Source: Sphingomonas edaphi (lineage in GTDB: Bacteria; Pseudomonadota; Alphaproteobacteria; Sphingomonadales; Sphingomonadaceae). From it: DNA of 64,000 bases. Numbering within the stretch: position 1 is the first letter of the stretch; each line of letters starts with the position of its first letter. The translations under genes and the position numbers were made by a program. The stretch is from assembly GCF_003583725.1 (NCBI RefSeq), contig NZ_QXTF01000001.1:1116001-1180000 (forward strand), written 5' to 3'. This document shows positions 37,200 to 44,083 of this stretch, piece after piece. A model generated the notes under the pieces. The model made no database searches. It saw only the letters and a program-made list of their open reading frames with translations, and had not been told where the DNA came from.

Positions 37200-38174
37200 T
37201 TAACCCTGATAGGCGGGCTTTAGCTTAAAGGCCGGTTGAACGGCAGGCCGAAGCATAAACTCGGTATTGTTCGGCTGGCGATTTTCCCGAGCTGGCTTTT
37301 CAGCCGATGGCTTGGGAGCTTGACCCGTCGCTTGCGCGGCGCGGCGTTCCTGCTGGTCGAAGAAGCTTGCCCGACGCAGGCGGTTCTTGAGTGACAGCGA
37401 GGGGTTGTCCGGCGTTGGCCCGCGATAGGCGGCGTGAACGTGGCGCCCGTAGCGCGACAGGTCGAAGCCGGCCGGAAGCGCGGTCACGGGTGCTCCGTGG
37501 ATCACCGCGGCAGGCGAAGGCTCAGGAGCACGAGCGAAGGCGGGTTCAGGGGAGGAAACAGGGTCGCTGTAAGCGACCGGTTGGTCGCCTACCCATTCGT
37601 CATCGCCATAGATTCCCTCATCTTCGGCGCGACGCTTGCGGCGACGCACCGCCATTCCGGCACCGGCAAGGGCGAGGATGCCGAGACCGGCAGCACCGGC
37701 AATCGGCAGCGCGTTCTCGAGAGCGTCGTTGGCGGCAACTCCCGCCGGTTCCGTCGGTGTCGGTGCAATGGGCTCGGCGACGGGAATCGCGGCCTCAACC
37801 GGCAGAGGAGCCTCGATCGCAGCGCCGGCCGCGGGCGCCGGCGCAGCGGCGGTCGGCGCAGCCGCTACCGGCGCAGTGGGGGCGCTGGACGTTGGTCGAT
37901 TTGCCGTCGAACGAACGGGTTTCGCGGCAACTTTGCGGACGGGCTTTTCAGCAGGGGCAGCGGGGCTGGCTTCGGTTGTCGCCGATTCGACTGCAGACAT
38001 GGGCGCCGTTGCCGGTTGCGCGGCGAGCGGATCGGTGGTCGTCACCGGTTCCGGCGCGGTTTCTACGACCGGTTCGGTCGTCGTAACTTCCTGCGCTAGG
38101 GCCGGGGTTGAAGTTGCGGCCAGGACTGCGGCAATCGCCGTCATCGCCGTACGAGCTTGGTTATTCCGTGTCAT
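37200..38174 (-). CDS. Ala/Pro-rich membrane protein with one helix
   Basis: The 324-residue protein has a signal-like N-terminus and a low-complexity Ala/Pro/Thr/Val segment (residues 30-150). One membrane helix ('LPIAGAAGLGILALAGAG') is followed by a basic stop-transfer 'AVRRRKRRAEDEG' and a polar cytoplasmic-looking tail with 'RYGRHVHAAYRGPTPDNPSL'. The architecture is a periplasmic spacer attached to a membrane anchor. The low-complexity part makes family assignment impossible. The start at 38174 is the first ATG near a reasonable signal sequence. Confidence 0.68.
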   Translation of the reverse strand: MTRNNQARTAMTAIAAVLAATSTPALAQEVTTTEPVVETAPEPVTTTDPLAAQPATAPMSAVESATTEASPAAPAEKPVRKVAAKPVRSTANRPTSSAPTAPVAAAPTAAAPAPAAGAAIEAPLPVEAAIPVAEPIAPTPTEPAGVAANDALENALPIAGAAGLGILALAGAGMAVRRRKRRAEDEGIYGDDEWVGDQPVAYSDPVSSPEPAFARAPEPSPAAVIHGAPVTALPAGFDLSRYGRHVHAAYRGPTPDNPSLSLKNRLRRASFFDQQERRAAQATGQAPKPSAEKPARENRQPNNTEFMLRPAVQPAFKLKPAYQG

Positions 38175-38282
38175 GGCAAACCAAACCCGCACAATTCCCA
38201 AACGGGTTCATGGTTTCCGACCAGCGGTGCCATGACAGGGACGAAATGACCAAACTCAGCCGGTCGCTAACTTACTGAATTA

Positions 38283-38305
38283 GGCGCGTTTTCCTCTTAC
38301 GCGCC
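38283..38305 (-). terminator. Hairpin after the BTLCP-like gene
   Basis: GGCGCG and CGCGCC (6 bp, perfect) flank an 11-base loop about 27 bases past the stop of the minus-strand gene ending at 38332. No clear T-run follows, so it may be a weak terminator or an mRNA-stabilising hairpin. Confidence 0.4.
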
Positions 38306-38331
38306 GCTGGTGGAGACCTGCAGCGGCTTGG

Positions 38332-39081
38332 TTAGCGCGCCTGTTTGGTGACCGATGCCGATGCAACCTTGCCGCCGACGCGGCGGCCGTGAATCCAGCT
38401 CATTCCTTGGCCAAGCGTCATGATTGGCGTGAAGCGCGCATTCTGGCTCGCGGGAATGACATCCTTCGCCTGGTCGTCGAGCGCGAAGAACCCGGACGCG
38501 GTTCGAGCCAGCAGTAGGATATGAGCGCCACGCTTATTGTCGCGTCCGACGCTTAGGTAGAGATCTTTGGGGTTAAATCCGGCTGCTTTGAGAACCTGCA
38601 TCTTCACGATGGCGATATCCTCGGCGTCGCCGGTACCACGCCTTAAAGTTTCGCCCGCATTGGCCCAGAAGTCGGCGACGCCCATATTATCGAGATCATG
38701 AGCCCAATGAACGCTCTGATTCACGGCAGCCTGGATCATCCGCAGCTTCGACACGGGATCGAGGCCGGCGGCCCCCGCCGCCAGCCTCTGGACCAGCGGG
38801 TCCCTCGCGTCCGTAGACGATACCCGCCGGAACCGCGCATCGTAGAAGGTGACGCCGGCATTGAGCGCTACCGTGCCGAAGACGTTGGGATTTTCCGGCC
38901 TCGACAGGATCAGCGGATGCGATACTCGCTGCGCCGGGCGTGCGGATCGATCGATAATGAGCGGATGGGAAGATTTGGAAATGGTGGGGCTGGCCGCGGC
39001 CTCGCCTGCCCCCGCAAGTGCGGGAGCCGCGGCCATCGTACAGGCGCCGGCAATCACCGTCTTGATCAGCATTTTGGCCAT
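38332..39081 (-). CDS. Transglutaminase-like (BTLCP) protein lacking catalytic Cys
   Basis: The 249-residue protein has a signal peptide and the bacterial transglutaminase-like Cys peptidase (PF06035) domain, seen in 'IQAAVNQSVHWAHDLDNMG' and 'DFWANAGETLRRGTGDAED'. Active family members have GDCED at the last site; here it is GDAED, with Ala153 coded by GCC. The His (His187, 'RGAHILLL') and Asp (Asp202) positions remain. It is therefore likely an inactive pseudo-enzyme, perhaps a binding protein. In related species such proteins act on adhesins such as LapA through c-di-GMP signalling, but none is nearby. Confidence 0.82.
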   Translation of the reverse strand: MAKMLIKTVIAGACTMAAAPALAGAGEAAASPTISKSSHPLIIDRSARPAQRVSHPLILSRPENPNVFGTVALNAGVTFYDARFRRVSSTDARDPLVQRLAAGAAGLDPVSKLRMIQAAVNQSVHWAHDLDNMGVADFWANAGETLRRGTGDAEDIAIVKMQVLKAAGFNPKDLYLSVGRDNKRGAHILLLARTASGFFALDDQAKDVIPASQNARFTPIMTLGQGMSWIHGRRVGGKVASASVTKQAR

Positions 39082-39207
39082 GGATTCACCCCTTCCCTGC
39101 CGTGCAGCAGAAAGAGTGACTCCAACTTCCCGTTAACGGAAGAGGTTAACGCTAGCTCATAAAATTAACCCGTTAAATGTGTCGGGTAGGCAACGTAACG
39201 AATACTG

Positions 39208-39735
39208 CTAACGCTTGAGCGCCTTCACTGCGGAAAGCGTTTTGGCCACATGGTCCTTCCAATTGAGGTCGGAATGAACCATTATGATTCGGCCGTCCGC
39301 GGCGATTACATAGCTAGTCCGATCGCTGAGTTCGGGCTTCGCCTTCAGGGCCACATCGTAAGCACGAATCGTCGCCGCGGTGGCCGTGGCGACGGGAAAA
39401 GCGCTTCGGCATCCCTCGGTCGAAAAGCGTTTCAATGTTGCTAAGTCGTCGGCGCTCATGCCGATCACGCGCGCGCCAGCCGCGCGAAATTGGGGCATCG
39501 CGTCAGCAAAGGCCTTGGCTTCCAAAGTACAACCTTCTGTGAAGGCCTTGGGATAGAAATACAGCACGACTGGTCCGTGGCGAAGCTGTTCGGCCAAGTG
39601 CAGCTTGAACGGCTTTCCGCCCAGTGCGCCCATCGTCCGGAAGTCGGGCGCTTTGGCGCCGACCGGCAAGGCTGCGGCCAAAGGCTGGGTGAACACAGCA
39701 GCCGCGAAAGCGACAAGGAAATGGGCGTGGCGCAT
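39208..39735 (-). CDS. Exported PrxQ/BCP-type peroxiredoxin
   Basis: The 175-residue protein has a signal peptide (cleavage near 'PLAAALP'), so it probably works in the periplasm. The peroxidatic motif is 'YPKAFTEGC' with Cys69 (PxxxTxxC), and a possible resolving Cys is Cys109 in 'STEGCRSAFP'. PrxQ enzymes with the resolving Cys five residues later are different, so this is an atypical spacing. It reduces peroxides at the expense of thiols. Confidence 0.86.
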   Translation of the reverse strand: MRHAHFLVAFAAAVFTQPLAAALPVGAKAPDFRTMGALGGKPFKLHLAEQLRHGPVVLYFYPKAFTEGCTLEAKAFADAMPQFRAAGARVIGMSADDLATLKRFSTEGCRSAFPVATATAATIRAYDVALKAKPELSDRTSYVIAADGRIIMVHSDLNWKDHVAKTLSAVKALKR

Positions 39736-39785
39736 CGGTTCGACTCCCGCGAAAGCCTGATGCTAATCGCGCCCTTGCGGCTTGG

Positions 39786-40259
39786 CTAGCACTCGTCGGG
39801 GAAGCTGGCGCGCTCGGGGTGGCGTGGGTGGAGCGTCCGGAAGAAGGCGAAGGCAGGCTTGAGGTCGGCCTCCACGTCTCCTGTCGGGTGAATAACAGGC
39901 CCGATCACCCCTCGCTTTAATAGATAATCGGGTCCTGCACAGACTATCGGCACATTGGCCTTCAGCGCGATCTGATAGAAGCCTGTGCGCCACTTGGTCG
40001 TTGCCGACCGCGTCCCTTCCGGCGCGATGACCAAGACGAAATCGTCATGCGAGGTGAATTGGGCGACGATCTGGCTGACCATGTCCTGTGGCGAGCTTCG
40101 GTTGACGGGCACCCCGCCTAGCGCGCGCATGAATCCGCCCATCGGCCATTTGAACAGGCTGTGCTTACCGATGAATCGCACTTGCCGCCCCAGAGCGGCG
40201 ACGGTGCCGAGAAAAACGAGGAAATCCCAGTTGGAGGTATGGGACGCGCCCATGATCAC
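39786..40259 (-). CDS. Lysophospholipid acyltransferase family protein, start unclear
   Basis: The translated frame contains the acyltransferase motif 'SHTSNWDF' (HxxxxD) and 'VIAPEGTRS' (the EGTR block), 'GVPVNRSS', and 'FYQIALKANVPIVCAG'. It transfers acyl groups to lysophospholipids. The GTG at 40259 is the first canonical start, yet the homologous region continues upstream in frame ('FLERVIRGLLIAWYDWQGW', 'PPYPKFVIMGASH') to near 40367 with no ATG, GTG or TTG. Initiation from CTG (40349) or ATC (40367), or a sequence error, is possible. It probably belongs to the PspC operon. Confidence 0.8.
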   Translation of the reverse strand: MIMGASHTSNWDFLVFLGTVAALGRQVRFIGKHSLFKWPMGGFMRALGGVPVNRSSPQDMVSQIVAQFTSHDDFVLVIAPEGTRSATTKWRTGFYQIALKANVPIVCAGPDYLLKRGVIGPVIHPTGDVEADLKPAFAFFRTLHPRHPERASFPDEC

Positions 40260-40377
40260 AAATTTCGGATAGGGCGGGAATTCGCCCGCGGGCTTCCATC
40301 CCTGCCAATCATACCAAGCGATCAGCAGGCCCCGAATGACGCGCTCCAGGAAATTGAGTCGCTCGATCCGGATCCGC

Positions 40378-40530
40378 CTAACGAAGGACCGAGCCGATGA
40401 TCCAAACCGCGGACATGGCGATCACGATCAGGAGGAGGGAGAAGCCGAGCACGTAGCGCACCCCCTGCGCTTTCACGCCGCCGGTGGCTTCGGTTTCGTT
40501 GAGATGAACTTCGTCGCCTTGCCGTTCCAT
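40378..40530 (-). CDS. 50-residue single-pass membrane peptide
   Basis: A 50-codon frame begins MERQGDEVHLNETEATGG and has one hydrophobic helix ('VLGFSLLLIVIAMSAVWIIG') near the end. It is not in an overlapping frame of any larger gene. It follows pspC in the same operon and ends in the region where the acyltransferase homology starts (the coding region of the acyltransferase extends into its stop). It is a small membrane protein of unknown function. Confidence 0.7.
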   Translation of the reverse strand: MERQGDEVHLNETEATGGVKAQGVRYVLGFSLLLIVIAMSAVWIIGSVLR

Positions 40531-40623
40531 CGCCGTTCTCCCGCGTCGATGGAAGGAATCTTGCCACAGGCGGCGGCCGAAAAACAGTCGTTATCCGGCC
40601 GGGGGCAGTCTGGCCGCCCCGCC

Positions 40624-40812
40624 TTAGCGGTCGTCGGCGGCCAGCCAGCCAGTCAGGATGTAGAAAAGAATCGCAATCGGGCCGGTCATCAGCGTGAGCG
40701 CTATAACGCCCAAGCGGACGATGAGAACATCGAGGCCTAGCCAATCCGAGAGGCCGGCACACACGCCCATGACCTTGGCCTTGGCGGGGTTAAGAACGAA
40801 GCGACCATTCAT
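40624..40812 (-). CDS. pspC: PspC-domain membrane protein
   Basis: The 62-residue protein is almost entirely a PspC domain: 'NPAKAKVMGVCAGLSDWLGL' and two hydrophobic stretches 'VLIVRLGVIALTLM' and 'IAILFYILTGWLA'. PspC acts in phage-shock responses to inner-membrane damage. The ATG at 40812 has AAGGGA upstream. It is shorter than typical PspC proteins. It follows a 35-residue peptide gene and a sigma-54-type promoter, and no pspA or pspB gene lies next to it. Confidence 0.88.
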   Translation of the reverse strand: MNGRFVLNPAKAKVMGVCAGLSDWLGLDVLIVRLGVIALTLMTGPIAILFYILTGWLAADDR

Positions 40813-40840
40813 GGTCTTGTTTCCCTTGACGCGAGTTGGT

Positions 40841-40948
40841 TCAGGCGATCGGCAGCGAAGCAGCGGCCGAAACGAACAGAAGCGAAGTGATGAAGGCACC
40901 GGCGAGGCTGGCTGCGAGCTGGCGGCTGTCAACGAACGAGAAGGTCAT
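40841..40948 (-). CDS. 35-residue hydrophobic peptide
   Basis: The ATG at 40948 has AAGGGAG 7-10 bases upstream, and the frame reads MTFSFVDSRQLAASLAGAF then 'ITSLLFVSAAASLPIA' and stop. It forms one hydrophobic helix. It is the first gene of the operon driven by the sigma-54-like promoter, with a hairpin at the 5' end of its leader. Small hydrophobic peptides are often stress effectors, but its function is unknown. Confidence 0.7.
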   Translation of the reverse strand: MTFSFVDSRQLAASLAGAFITSLLFVSAAASLPIA

Positions 40949-40965
40949 TTTTAATCTCCCTTTTT

Positions 40966-40983
40966 GAGCCCGTCATTGGGCTC
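40966..40983 (-). promoter_or_regulatory. Hairpin at predicted 5' end of the PspC operon mRNA
   Basis: GAGCCC-AATGAC-GGGCTC (6-bp perfect stem) would begin one base after the predicted start of transcription (about 40984). It is immediately followed by the A-rich leader and the AAGGGAG ribosome-binding site. A stem at the extreme 5' end commonly protects mRNA. Its position is calculated from the -12 element. Confidence 0.55.
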
Positions 40984-40994
40984 GAAACATACTT

Positions 40995-41010
40995 TGCAGG
41001 GAGCGTGCCA
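40995..41010 (-). promoter_or_regulatory. Sigma-54 (RpoN) -24/-12 promoter
   Basis: On the minus strand the sequence TGGCACGCTCCCTGCA matches the consensus TGGCACG-N4-TTGCW at every position except one T. The GG and GC elements are ten bases apart, as required. It lies 47 bases upstream of the first ATG of the PspC operon. Phage-shock operons are classically sigma-54 dependent, so sequence and content agree. Confidence 0.8.
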
Positions 41011-41011
41011 A

Positions 41012-41096
41012 TTGAAAAAATGCATTGTTTTTCAACGCGCCAGGCTTCGGCGTGGGAAATTCCGCGTGATTTTATGCCGAAGTGTTGGGAATTTCC
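41012..41096. promoter_or_regulatory. Inverted repeats upstream of the sigma-54 promoter
   Basis: Three dyads lie upstream of the -24 box. TTGAAAAA/TTTTTCAA (41012-41035, perfect, 8-base spacer) abuts the promoter. CTTCGGC (41045-41051) pairs with GCCGAAG (41076-41082). GGAAATTCC (41055-41063) pairs with GGAATTTCC (41088-41096). Relative to the start at 40984 the last two fall between about -61 and -112, a normal place for an enhancer-binding activator such as PspF. Confidence 0.55.
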
Positions 41097-41102
41097 GCCA
41101 AC

Positions 41103-41960
41103 CTATCCGTTGACGATGATGCCGCCGTTGGGATGGAGCACCTGCCCGGTCATGTAGCTGGCATCCTCACACGCGAGGAAAAGGAAGGCGGGGGCGACTT
41201 CGTTGGGCTGGCCGGGCCGACCCATCGGCGTATCCTTGCCGAAATCCGGGATTTCTTTCGCAGGTTTTCCGCCAAAGGGATTGAGCGGGGTCCAGATCGG
41301 CCCGGGAGCGACCGCATTTACGCGAATGCCGTCACCAACGAGATTGGCCGAGAGGGAGCGTGTGAATGCCGTGATTGCGCCCTTAGTTGCGGAATAGTCG
41401 AGTAGCTTCTCGCTGCCCTTGTACATGGTGACCGACGTGCAATTGATGATCGCCGCCCCCTTGTTCAGGTGCGGTCGGGCGGCCTGCACTAAGTAAAACA
41501 TGGAAAAAATGTTCGACTGAAAGGTCCGGCGAAGCTGGTCGTCGGTAATGTCGCGAATATCCTCGTCCGGATGCTGCTCGCCCGCATTGTTCACGACGAT
41601 GTCGAGACGCCCGAACGTGTCGATCACCTTCTGAACCGCCTTCGGCGCGAAGTCCGGATTGCCCAGATCGCCGGGAACCAGAATCGCCCGGCGCCCCTCG
41701 GCCTCGACGATCTTCTTCGTATTTTCCGCGTCTTCATGCTCACAGAGGTAGAATATGGCGATGTCGGCACCCTCGCGCGCATAGAGTGCGGCGACGGCAC
41801 GGCCGATGCCGCTGTCAGCGCCGGTGATGATCGCAACCTTGTCCTTCAGCCGGGCGGACCCGGCGTAGCGCGGTTGCCAGTCGGGCTTCGGATCCAGCTT
41901 GCCCTCCTCGCCGGGCAGAGCATCTTCGTGGATCATCGGCTCAACGTCGGTTTTTGCCAT
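41103..41960 (-). CDS. SDR-family oxidoreductase (glucose/YghA type)
   Basis: The 285-residue protein has the NAD(P) motif 'ITGADSGIGRAVA' (TGxxxGIG), 'VVNNAGEQHPDEDI', and the catalytic 'YSATKGAITAFT' (YxxxK). The N-terminal 40 residues ('LPGEEGKLDPKPDWQPRY') are of the type found in YghA/general stress SDRs. The substrate is not evident. Its stop lies just before the upstream region of the PspC operon, on the same strand. Confidence 0.92.
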   Translation of the reverse strand: MAKTDVEPMIHEDALPGEEGKLDPKPDWQPRYAGSARLKDKVAIITGADSGIGRAVAALYAREGADIAIFYLCEHEDAENTKKIVEAEGRRAILVPGDLGNPDFAPKAVQKVIDTFGRLDIVVNNAGEQHPDEDIRDITDDQLRRTFQSNIFSMFYLVQAARPHLNKGAAIINCTSVTMYKGSEKLLDYSATKGAITAFTRSLSANLVGDGIRVNAVAPGPIWTPLNPFGGKPAKEIPDFGKDTPMGRPGQPNEVAPAFLFLACEDASYMTGQVLHPNGGIIVNG

Positions 41961-41964
41961 GGGT

Positions 41965-42213
41965 TTAGCCCTGGCGGGTGTTGGCGGGCACCTTTATCCG
42001 CGGGGCGCGCTCGGCCGACGGCGCCTTGGCCGGACGGCATTCGGCGAGCAGCGTCGGGAAGTCGAAGTCGCTGTTGGCGGCAAGGGTCGACGTCGTCGCG
42101 GCCGCACAGGCCTGGCGACTTTCATAGCGCGTCGACATCGTAGCAACCGGCGTGCAGCCAGCCGACCCGTCGGCGCAGCCCATGATGGCAATGACGTAGA
42201 AACCCGGACCCAT
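41965..42213 (-). CDS. Small hypothetical protein with Cys
   Basis: The 82-residue product starts MGPGFYVIAIMGCADGSAGC (GGAGAG before the ATG at 42213) and carries four Cys in total, two in the motif 'GCADGSAGC', plus a C-terminal Pro/Arg-rich tail. The start is hydrophobic but lacks a classical signal peptide. It precedes the SDR gene by four bases, so they are probably co-transcribed. Function unknown. Confidence 0.65.
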   Translation of the reverse strand: MGPGFYVIAIMGCADGSAGCTPVATMSTRYESRQACAAATTSTLAANSDFDFPTLLAECRPAKAPSAERAPRIKVPANTRQG

Positions 42214-42242
42214 GTTCACTCTCCGCTAGGAACAGGGATCAT

Positions 42243-42300
42243 AACCGCCGGGAAATCCCGACGGTTCCAAACGGTTCGTCGTGAAACGGCATTTGTGCCG
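42243..42300 (-). terminator. Two hairpins following the sulfotransferase gene
   Basis: CGGCA/TGCCG (42287-42300) starts right after the stop codon, followed by TTTC on the minus strand. AACCG-CGGG / CCCG-CGGTT (42243-42266, with one mismatched base) forms a second stem before the next gene. One or both may terminate transcription or protect the mRNA. Confidence 0.45.
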
Positions 42301-42301
42301 C

Positions 42302-44083
42302 TCAGCCTTTGCCAGTTGATCTGTAGCCCAGTTGCCGCGCCCAGGAGTCAAGGGTCGGCAACACGGGGGCAAGTTGGTCCGCGTAGCGCTTCCACCGGCC
42401 GGAGGCGCGCTGGTGGATCGGCTGCATGACCTGGTCGTAGCTGGGGGTCGCAATCAGGTCGCGGCGGGCCGCCGTTCGCCGATGGTCGAGCAGTTCAGGC
42501 TGCCAGGACAATCCCAGCCAGTCGACGAGGGGCCGAAGCGTACCCTCAGTGTCGGCAACTAGGTCCTCATAAGCGATGTCATACACGTCAAGTTTGAGCT
42601 TGCGCCGGGCGCGGAACCACAGGGACAGGGCGACATCGTAAAAAGCCGCTGCGTCCCCGATATCCAGAAAGTTGGCCATCGCGTCGTTCAGTTGAAACGA
42701 TTGCAGATAGTTACTCAGAACCGCATCCGCGGGATGTCTCCGCGCAAAGATGAACTTTGCATCGGGGAAAAGGCGGTGAATGACCGGCGCTCCGGTCATG
42801 GCCAACGGAAGCTTGTCGACGACCAGCTTGTCGCCGCCGTCAGGCACGTGACGGCTCAATTCCTTGAAATAGGCCTGCCGGGCACGATCGATCCGTTCGG
42901 GGCTTTCGCGGTTAAGGTTTTCGAGGTCGCCGAGTTCCCTCGTCGCCGCGTCAAGCATCGGCTCTTCCTCCACCACCTCGACATCGGGATGGCCACGCAG
43001 GAATGTATCGAGCAGCGTGGTGCCGGACCTGGGGAAAGCCACCAGGAAGACGGGCGAGCGCCGCGACGACGGGGGCCCCTCCGTCCAGGCGGCTACCCAG
43101 TCGTCGGTTAGGGCGGCCTCGATCGCCTGCATCTTCGCGCGATGGTCGGCGGCGCGTCGGCGCCAGCCGTCCCGATCCTCCACGGACATAGAAGCTTCAG
43201 TCGCCGCAACGAACGCTCGCTGCGCATCGCCGGCCCGATCCGCCAGCGTGGCGACCAGCGTCGCGCGCCGGGCAGGATCGGCGGGGATGATGCTGGCTTC
43301 TGCAAGTTCGAGGGCCCTGTCCGTATCGCCCTTTCGCTTGGCGATGAGCGCCCGCGGATAATCGAGTTCCCGCTCGTCGAACCTGGCCATCTCTCCGTGC
43401 GCTATCAGCCGTTCAAGCTCTGGAGCGTCATTTTGCCGTTCCGCAAGGTCGACGAGTGAGAGCCATGAAGAGCGATCGCTGGGATCCGACTGAAGTAGCT
43501 CGCGGTTAATCGCCGCTCCTTCCTCGATGCGTCGATCGAGAAGCATCGCCGATGCACGCGCCCGATCACGATTCGGCGATGGCGGCAACTGGTCAAGGTG
43601 GAACAGCGCTCGCCGGGACTGATCGAGGGAGAAGAGCAAGGATATGATCTTCTCGCGCGCGGGCTGGTTGCCCTCGTCAAGCAGCAGCACCCTCTCCAAG
43701 GCTTCGGCTTCCTCACGAGCGTTTCCGGCCCGATGCGCCGCCTCGGCCCGCGTACGCCAGAGCAGCAGCAGCGCCTCCGGAGGAAGATTGTCTCCGCCAA
43801 ACGGCAACTCCAATGCCTCGGCCGCGCGATCGGCATCGATCAGGGCGCGCATCAAAGTCACGAGAACCGCCGGCTCGGCCGGACGAAGGGTGGCTGCGCG
43901 TTGAAGATAGTCGATCCCGCCGGTCAGGTCGCCCTGACGGCAACATGCGACACCCGCGATGTGCAGCAGCGAAAACTCTTCGCCGTCCGCCAGCGCCGCC
44001 TCCGCTACCTGCCGAGCAGAGGCGATGTCGCCCTTCTGGAACAGCATGGCGGCCTGGGCGGCGGGGTTGGGAACGCGGGTCAT
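42302..44083 (-). CDS. TPR-sulfotransferase fusion protein
   Basis: The 593-residue protein has an N-terminal TPR-rich half (residues 1-300, for example 'EFSLLHIAGVACCRQGDLTG') and a C-terminal sulfotransferase domain. The PAPS-binding loop reads 'FLVAFPRSGTTLLDTFLRGH' near residue 345, and later 'KFIFARRHPADAVLSNYLQS' supplies the 3'-phosphate site. It likely uses PAPS as donor; the acceptor is unknown. The start at 44083 is chosen because the longer frame crosses the divergent ABC gene. It lies next to the Atm1-type exporter on the opposite strand. Confidence 0.85.
   Translation of the reverse strand: MTRVPNPAAQAAMLFQKGDIASARQVAEAALADGEEFSLLHIAGVACCRQGDLTGGIDYLQRAATLRPAEPAVLVTLMRALIDADRAAEALELPFGGDNLPPEALLLLWRTRAEAAHRAGNAREEAEALERVLLLDEGNQPAREKIISLLFSLDQSRRALFHLDQLPPSPNRDRARASAMLLDRRIEEGAAINRELLQSDPSDRSSWLSLVDLAERQNDAPELERLIAHGEMARFDERELDYPRALIAKRKGDTDRALELAEASIIPADPARRATLVATLADRAGDAQRAFVAATEASMSVEDRDGWRRRAADHRAKMQAIEAALTDDWVAAWTEGPPSSRRSPVFLVAFPRSGTTLLDTFLRGHPDVEVVEEEPMLDAATRELGDLENLNRESPERIDRARQAYFKELSRHVPDGGDKLVVDKLPLAMTGAPVIHRLFPDAKFIFARRHPADAVLSNYLQSFQLNDAMANFLDIGDAAAFYDVALSLWFRARRKLKLDVYDIAYEDLVADTEGTLRPLVDWLGLSWQPELLDHRRTAARRDLIATPSYDQVMQPIHQRASGRWKRYADQLAPVLPTLDSWARQLGYRSTGKG

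Follow-up and report, generated by a model that had tools for sequence, protein, structure and literature searches.

Why would Sphingomonas edaphi, which carries pspF, pspA, pspB and pspC elsewhere in its genome, place a further PspC-domain gene behind what looks like a promoter for sigma-54 (RpoN)? The question is raised by a locus in a 64,000-nucleotide stretch of its DNA (contig NZ_QXTF01000001.1, positions 1,116,001 to 1,180,000), hereafter called the window. On the minus strand between positions 39786 and 41101, the order in the direction of transcription is an 18-bp dyad, a sigma-54 promoter, a hairpin, and genes for a 35-aa peptide, a PspC-domain protein, a 50-aa peptide and an acyltransferase. 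We consider it likely that this locus is a second operon of a sphingomonad PspF/sigma-54 (phage-shock) regulon and that its products act as inner-membrane effectors. A sequence-only reading of the window had already proposed a sigma-54-driven PspC operon with an upstream enhancer, and this proposal is now supported by a promoter that is conserved among relatives and by a dyad of the type found between pspF and pspA.

The predicted promoter with its -24 and -12 elements, TGGCACGCTCCCTGCA (40995-41010, minus strand), agrees with the sigma-54 pattern at 12 of 12 scored positions, C being allowed at the first T of TTGC. Transcription would start near 40984, judging from the usual 12-nt distance to the GC element. 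The genome contains two exact matches to TGGCACGNNNNYTGC, the second of which lies inside an activator gene. When one mismatch was allowed, there were 128 genome matches versus 163 for the reversed control. Since such sites are no commoner than in the control, a near match alone was given no weight, and it is conservation that carries weight. A sigma-70 consensus scan of 38000-43000 found no site, which conveys little information as only 1.2 were expected from shuffled sequences.

Conservation was examined by a PspC search of 61 genomes (its own and 60 relatives; 37 of the same genus), of which 55 matched. From these, the 30 top-scoring loci were read, each from a different genome; every one, the window included, belongs to the same genus. 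A sigma-54 site was present 186-223 nt before pspC in all 30 loci, with a score of 12 in 22 and of 11 in the other 8, and the near-perfect RpoN promoter of the sequence-only reading is thereby borne out. Between promoter and pspC, every one of the 30 loci has a hydrophobic frame of 33-37 aa. In a second, named collection, the best 80 loci from 321 relatives (Sphingomonas, Sphingomicrobium, Sphingobium, Parasphingopyxis and others) were analyzed. Ten of these have pspA and pspB as neighbors. Among the other 70, of which 13 repeat loci of the 30, a site scoring at least 11/12 was found within 330 nt in 65, a filter for the peptide was passed by 66, and both applied to 62. Three of the five loci without a near site are Parasphingopyxis loci with a duplicated peptide, where sites scoring 11, 11 and 12 are located at -418, -375 and -384; the remaining two are explained by an assembly gap and a contig edge. 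As for the four failures of the peptide filter, L124 actually has the peptide, L158 is a contig end, and L145 and L120 are true exceptions. By these comparisons, the conserved operon is the peptide plus PspC. We also observed an A/T-rich near-palindrome (TGaaaA..aacga.tttttc.AaT) that abuts the sigma-54 site upstream of the -24 element and is conserved in L051-L080; it could be a bending or contact element.

The regulators that such a promoter would need are encoded in the genome. RpoN was recognized by PF04552 (212 bits) and PspF by TIGR02974 (484 bits; cut-off 443.6), the latter beside PspA, PspB and PspC, all above their cut-offs. An orthologue of PspF with 74-100% identity is present in 37 of 37 same-genus genomes. 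The probable PspF enhancer, or upstream activating sequence, of the window is TTGGCGGAAATTCCCAAC (41084-41101, minus strand), with its center 83 bp ahead of the GG in the -24 element. A matrix was built from 29 peptide-PspC upstream regions (that of L067 was too short) with the consensus GTTGGGAAATTTtaCCAA; its best site was centered at -83 to -85 from the GG in 24 of these 29 training loci, and the window dyad scored 22.8 in a leave-one-out matrix. The same matrix was then applied to 30 pspF-pspA intergenic regions outside the training set. It gave p≤0.05 in 29 of 30 (60 dinucleotide shuffles each), with the enhancer center at -83 to -85 in 25 of 30, and many of the hits were an element of the GGTGGCAAATCCCACCA type. 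Beyond the 30, another 57 loci were considered, of which 55 were amenable to scoring; the enhancer score was at least 14 in 40 of these and the center at -82 to -86 in 43.

The specificity of this motif was evaluated by a census in which 100 distinct sites of the 128 sigma-54-like genome sites were scored, one with just 83 nt upstream. An enhancer score of at least 14 occurred at only four sites, all of which precede the four PspC genes of the genome; the next best score was 10.7, at -14. Simple pattern searches were less informative. With up to 3 mismatches, TTGGGAAATTTCCCCAA had 2 genome matches including the window dyad, and its reversed control had 1. The gapped pattern TTCCCNAC-N22..52-TGGCAC had one match and its control 2, the real spacing being larger than this pattern allows. 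As the window dyad is the motif found between pspF and pspA, we name the activator PspF, with good probability. The shared dyad and the census restricting it to PspC loci make it very probable that the window carries the second operon under PspF and sigma-54, in formal terms a counterpart of E. coli pspG.

Four PspC-domain genes are found in the genome, and sigma-54-like sites precede all four loci: TGGCACAAGCCCTGC (pspA), TGGCACGGCTCTTGT (pspA2), TGGCACAGCACTTGC (the fourth pspC) and the window's own. The absence of pspA and pspB noted in the sequence-only reading is thus true of the locus and false of the genome, which has both the pspF/pspA-pspB-pspC genes and a second pspA-pspC operon. The second PspA is barely above its cut-off and adjoins a PspC that falls below the PspC cut-off. 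In same-genus pspA2 loci, a sigma-54 site (last C relaxed), an upstream activating sequence and a leader peptide were present in 22 of 22; the enhancer scores ranged from 16.7 to 25.8 at a variable distance, the best hits being at -49 to -85. The second pspA-pspC operon of the genome itself (L015:2795-4382, C2) was seen to have its own sigma-54 site and a leader peptide of the same family, and a 76-aa frame behind it looks PspB-like by eye. At the fourth PspC gene (L016, near C1:45599), a sigma-54 site is accompanied by two strong enhancer matches with 23 bp between them, and a leader peptide was not noticed.

What would the products of the window operon do? The PspC gene (40624-40812, minus strand; ATG behind AGGGA) encodes 62 aa with a PspC domain and without the C-terminal half of PspC. 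PF04024 matched at 45.2 bits (cut-off 25; scanned as a 102-aa frame) and at 45.9 bits in the genome search. TIGR02978 aligned over positions 7-59 of 121 with 44.3 bits versus a cut-off of 104, short of the equivalog level; on these matches the protein is a PspC-domain module, not PspC itself. An AlphaFold2 model of moderate confidence (predicted local distance difference test 76.7, predicted template modeling score 0.45) shows a short helix at residues 15-25 and a long one at 29-59. In the TIGR02978 alignment, the protein corresponds in extent to the E. coli fragment PspC1-68, which likewise has the cytoplasmic and transmembrane PspC domain and no C-terminal region (PMC3068692). Unlike that laboratory fragment, the window form is a natural gene product co-encoded with a peptide. 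Induction of psp by a secretin is reported to need full-length PspC, with PspC1-68 unable to support it, and overproduction of PspC1-68 without PspB to lower the proton-motive force (PMC3068692). Since the window PspC is without the C-terminal half that E. coli signaling needs, an effector role is likelier than that of a sensor, by analogy with the E. coli protein.

It is conceivable, if unlikely, that the PspC module is instead a decoy or regulator which competes in the PspB-PspC-PspA sensor complex and so tunes signaling. The module keeps its transmembrane region and shares 42% identity over 57 residues with the genome's own PspC, and E. coli PspB reportedly meets PspC via inner-membrane regions (PMC3068692). 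Set against this, it is without the leucine-zipper and C-terminal region described as required for PspA signaling in E. coli (PMC3068692), and we favor an effector at the inner membrane.

The other product would be a 35-aa single-pass membrane peptide, MTFSFVDSRQLAASLAGAFITSLLFVSAAASLPIA (40841-40948, minus strand), with GGGAG as its ribosome site. We considered the alternative that this frame is merely a leader with a regulatory or translation-coupling role, leaving PspC as the sole functional product. Its position between promoter and pspC, with a gap to pspC of only 11-44 nt (29 loci measured), would suit a leader, as would a poorly conserved N terminus and a first codon position nearly as variable as the third. 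The amino-acid sequence is nevertheless constrained: pN/pS among 29 peptides was 0.47 for 14 disjoint closest pairs and 0.57 for 105 pairs with at least 60% identity. In addition, three Parasphingopyxis loci (L135, L149, L154) carry tandem copies of the leader peptide before the PspC module, with the sigma-54 site and enhancer ahead of both copies.

The distribution of the peptide bears on the same question. Searches against Pfam, NCBIfam and PHROGs found no match, the 35-aa query limiting their sensitivity. A profile was made from 30 peptides including both copies of the own genome and searched in 296 genomes of the order. At E≤0.01, 68 genomes matched, comprising 22 from the same genus, another 45 from elsewhere in the family, and one, a weak match, that is not in the family; some of the weak matches fall in long open frames and may be due to chance, and 208 genomes without a match were not listed. 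Each of the 22 same-genus genomes holds at least 2 matches. The own genome has two, at the head of the window operon and of the pspA2 operon; that the same peptide family also heads pspA2 operons speaks against a leader dedicated to the PspC module. A sigma-54-like site scoring at least 11/12 (last C relaxed) occurs in every one of the 30 best profile loci, some of which had also supplied the profile, and PspC or PspA follows in 26.

The four profile loci without PspC or PspA all come from g23, a different genus in the family; 21 of its 24 matching genomes were examined (G083, G242 and G254 were left out). The promoter was present in 21 of 21 loci, and one of these (G226, L320) heads a pspA operon. 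In the other 20 (L303, L314, L315, L316, L322-L337), tblastn with the window PspC and the genome's PspA detected neither protein in downstream flanks of 1.5 kb in 4 loci and about 0.6 kb in 16, so that a strongly diverged PspC might escape. A sigma-54-driven peptide in these loci is difficult to reconcile with a mere leader of pspC, an explanation that we regard as quite improbable. As far as the sequences of these loci indicate, it is the peptide that seems to stay constant and PspC that can be exchanged. In 12 of the 20 g23 loci, the leader peptide is followed by another hydrophobic peptide, 28-37 aa in length and frequently with a core resembling AFATTALL; this was judged by eye, in four loci from printed DNA.

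Two further genes in the window lie outside the conserved core, namely that of a 50-aa single-pass peptide (40378-40530, minus strand) and that of an acyltransferase (39786 to about 40349, minus strand; PF01553, 62.7 bits for the portion reaching 40259), whose start codon is uncertain. The sequence-only reading had joined them with PspC in a four-gene unit for membrane stress and phospholipid repair. The genes are present in the window on one strand with close spacing, their order is kept in L053, L054 and L055, and no consistent terminator was seen after pspC across the loci. However, the 50-aa gene adjoins in just 5 of the 30 loci, and the acyltransferase directly follows in just 4. Each was located elsewhere in two more of the 30 loci, and neither was found in the flanks of about 1.5 kb (shorter in L066 and L055) of the remaining ones. 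A check of gene order and promoter in sphingomonads accordingly upheld the promoter and the core order and not the four-gene order. A joint function of PspC, 50-aa peptide and acyltransferase in lipid repair is very improbable, and the linkage of PspC to phospholipid repair was rejected on synteny. With regard to the acyltransferase itself, its frame is devoid of ATG, GTG and TTG (40260-40415, minus strand) ahead of an internal GTG at 40259, while similarity to relatives reaches about 30 codons upstream of that GTG; this may reflect an uncommon start codon or an error in the sequence.

Least probable of all is control by a sigma-54 activator other than PspF: sigma-54 activator domains match at six places in the genome, four of them strongly, so that three strong candidates stand beside PspF, but it is the pspF-pspA intergenic motif that is present here, mostly at equal distance, and the four of 100 scored sites that have it all precede PspC genes.

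The predicted mRNA would begin with a hairpin at about +2 (40966-40983, minus strand; GAGCCC-AATGAC-GGGCTC). The sequence-only reading had noted this perfect hairpin; it is present at 40983-40966, and its structure recurs in relatives. Compared with mononucleotide shuffles, the 28 nt that follow the predicted start have a more stable fold (p≤0.05) in 25 of 30 loci, with a mean z of -3.0; the two sets of control windows yielded 3 (z -0.18) and 0 (z -0.12) significant folds, each out of 30. The stem is kept while its sequence varies between loci. Since the MAFFT alignment of the leaders set the stems in different registers, fold stability was used in place of covariation. A role as terminator was rejected because the hairpin lies ahead of all the genes, its fold is found again in relatives, and in the window it is not followed by a run of T.

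Several observations weigh against the interpretation of the locus as a PspF-dependent operon for two effectors. Some concern the enhancer. Several of the 29 intergenic p-values sit at the 0.05 limit (60 shuffles each), and TTGT or TTGA replaces TTGC in 9 of 30 pspA promoters. Enhancer scores were below 10 in 12 of the 55 further loci, among them Parasphingopyxis L138 at 2.5, and they ranged from 3.9 to 19.2 across 16 loci of genus g23. Both inverted repeats that the sequence-only reading had seen upstream of the promoter do exist, and the motif at 41101-41084 is shared with relatives; the second, which encloses GGAATTTCCC between the arms CTTCGGC (41082-41076) and GCCGAAG (41051-41045) on the minus strand, scores just 4.0 in the matrix, at -50. 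It is possibly a weaker second PspF site. The sites at the other three PspC loci carry one mismatch, a class no commoner than the reversed control; because this class resembles background, these sites rest on the enhancer and on the relatives. Other observations concern the products and the leader. L145 has the promoter and PspC without the peptide, whose frame is interrupted in L120. The codon-position variability of the peptide, 1.04, 0.59 and 1.09 bits, is coding-like only weakly, the third position being hardly freer than the first. An Rfam scan of 38000-43000 at gathering thresholds produced no match. Finally, the effector function of the peptide and PspC, probable as it seems to us, has analogy as its basis.

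In E. coli, envelope damage draws PspA off PspF. By extension, we propose that envelope damage in S. edaphi would cause PspA to leave PspF, and that freed PspF would bind the dyad, located some 108 bp before the start, and open the RpoN promoter; both of these elements are conserved. The resulting short mRNA, perhaps protected by its 5' hairpin, would be translated into the 35-aa single-pass peptide and the 62-aa PspC transmembrane module. Both products would then probably limit or tune proton leak at the inner membrane, by analogy with what is thought for E. coli PspG.

Known systems resemble the locus in part. E. coli PspF is reported to bind two enhancers at pspA and one at pspG (PMC3709507), the pspA operon and pspG being its only known targets according to one survey (PMC9239133), and PspG is described as an inner-membrane effector (PMC2763126). 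Like pspG (PMC2763126, PMC3709507, PMC9239133), the window locus is a separate predicted PspF/sigma-54 operon outside the pspA operon and encodes a small membrane protein. Unlike pspG, it consists of the peptide and a PspC module, and the peptide, without a Pfam or NCBIfam match, is set apart from PspG by family searches alone. It shares the activator-site motif, spacing, sigma factor and PspC domain with the canonical pspF/pspABC system, from which it differs in having no pspA or pspB, a truncated PspC, an added leader micropeptide and no linkage to pspF. YohP of E. coli, also a very short membrane protein, is reported to be stress-linked, to lower the membrane potential and to induce Psp (PMC12719787); the likeness is by description alone, and the genetic context is different. 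The roles of several small Psp proteins are described as unclear (PMC9239133). For a related response, a Zymomonas transcriptome is reported to show pspABC raised under ethanol (PMC3495753). The terms 'Sphingomon' and 'Sphingo' were not found in the main-text portions of two Psp surveys (PMC9239133, PMC11237479), and neither the operon nor the peptide is reported in the titles and abstract openings among the open-access matches listed. A Novosphingobium genomics paper (PMC5443232) contains the words phage shock a single time. The micropeptide family is apparently undescribed.

A bolder extension is tentative, and we think it considerably more likely to fail than to hold. The micropeptide may be the founder of an undescribed PspF/sigma-54-induced family that marks the Psp response of the Sphingomonadaceae, with interchangeable partners (a PspC module, PspA-PspC, a duplicate of the peptide or another micropeptide). 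Together with PspC it would form a self-contained proton-motive-force device, in which a natural PspC1-68 renders the membrane leaky or less energized and the peptide, standing in for PspB, restrains it.

Viewed alongside its relatives, the locus suggests that the phage-shock regulon of a single genome comprises four operons. With a micropeptide that is used repeatedly and a PspC that is truncated by nature, it should become possible to test directly which portion of PspC works at the membrane and which is confined to signaling.

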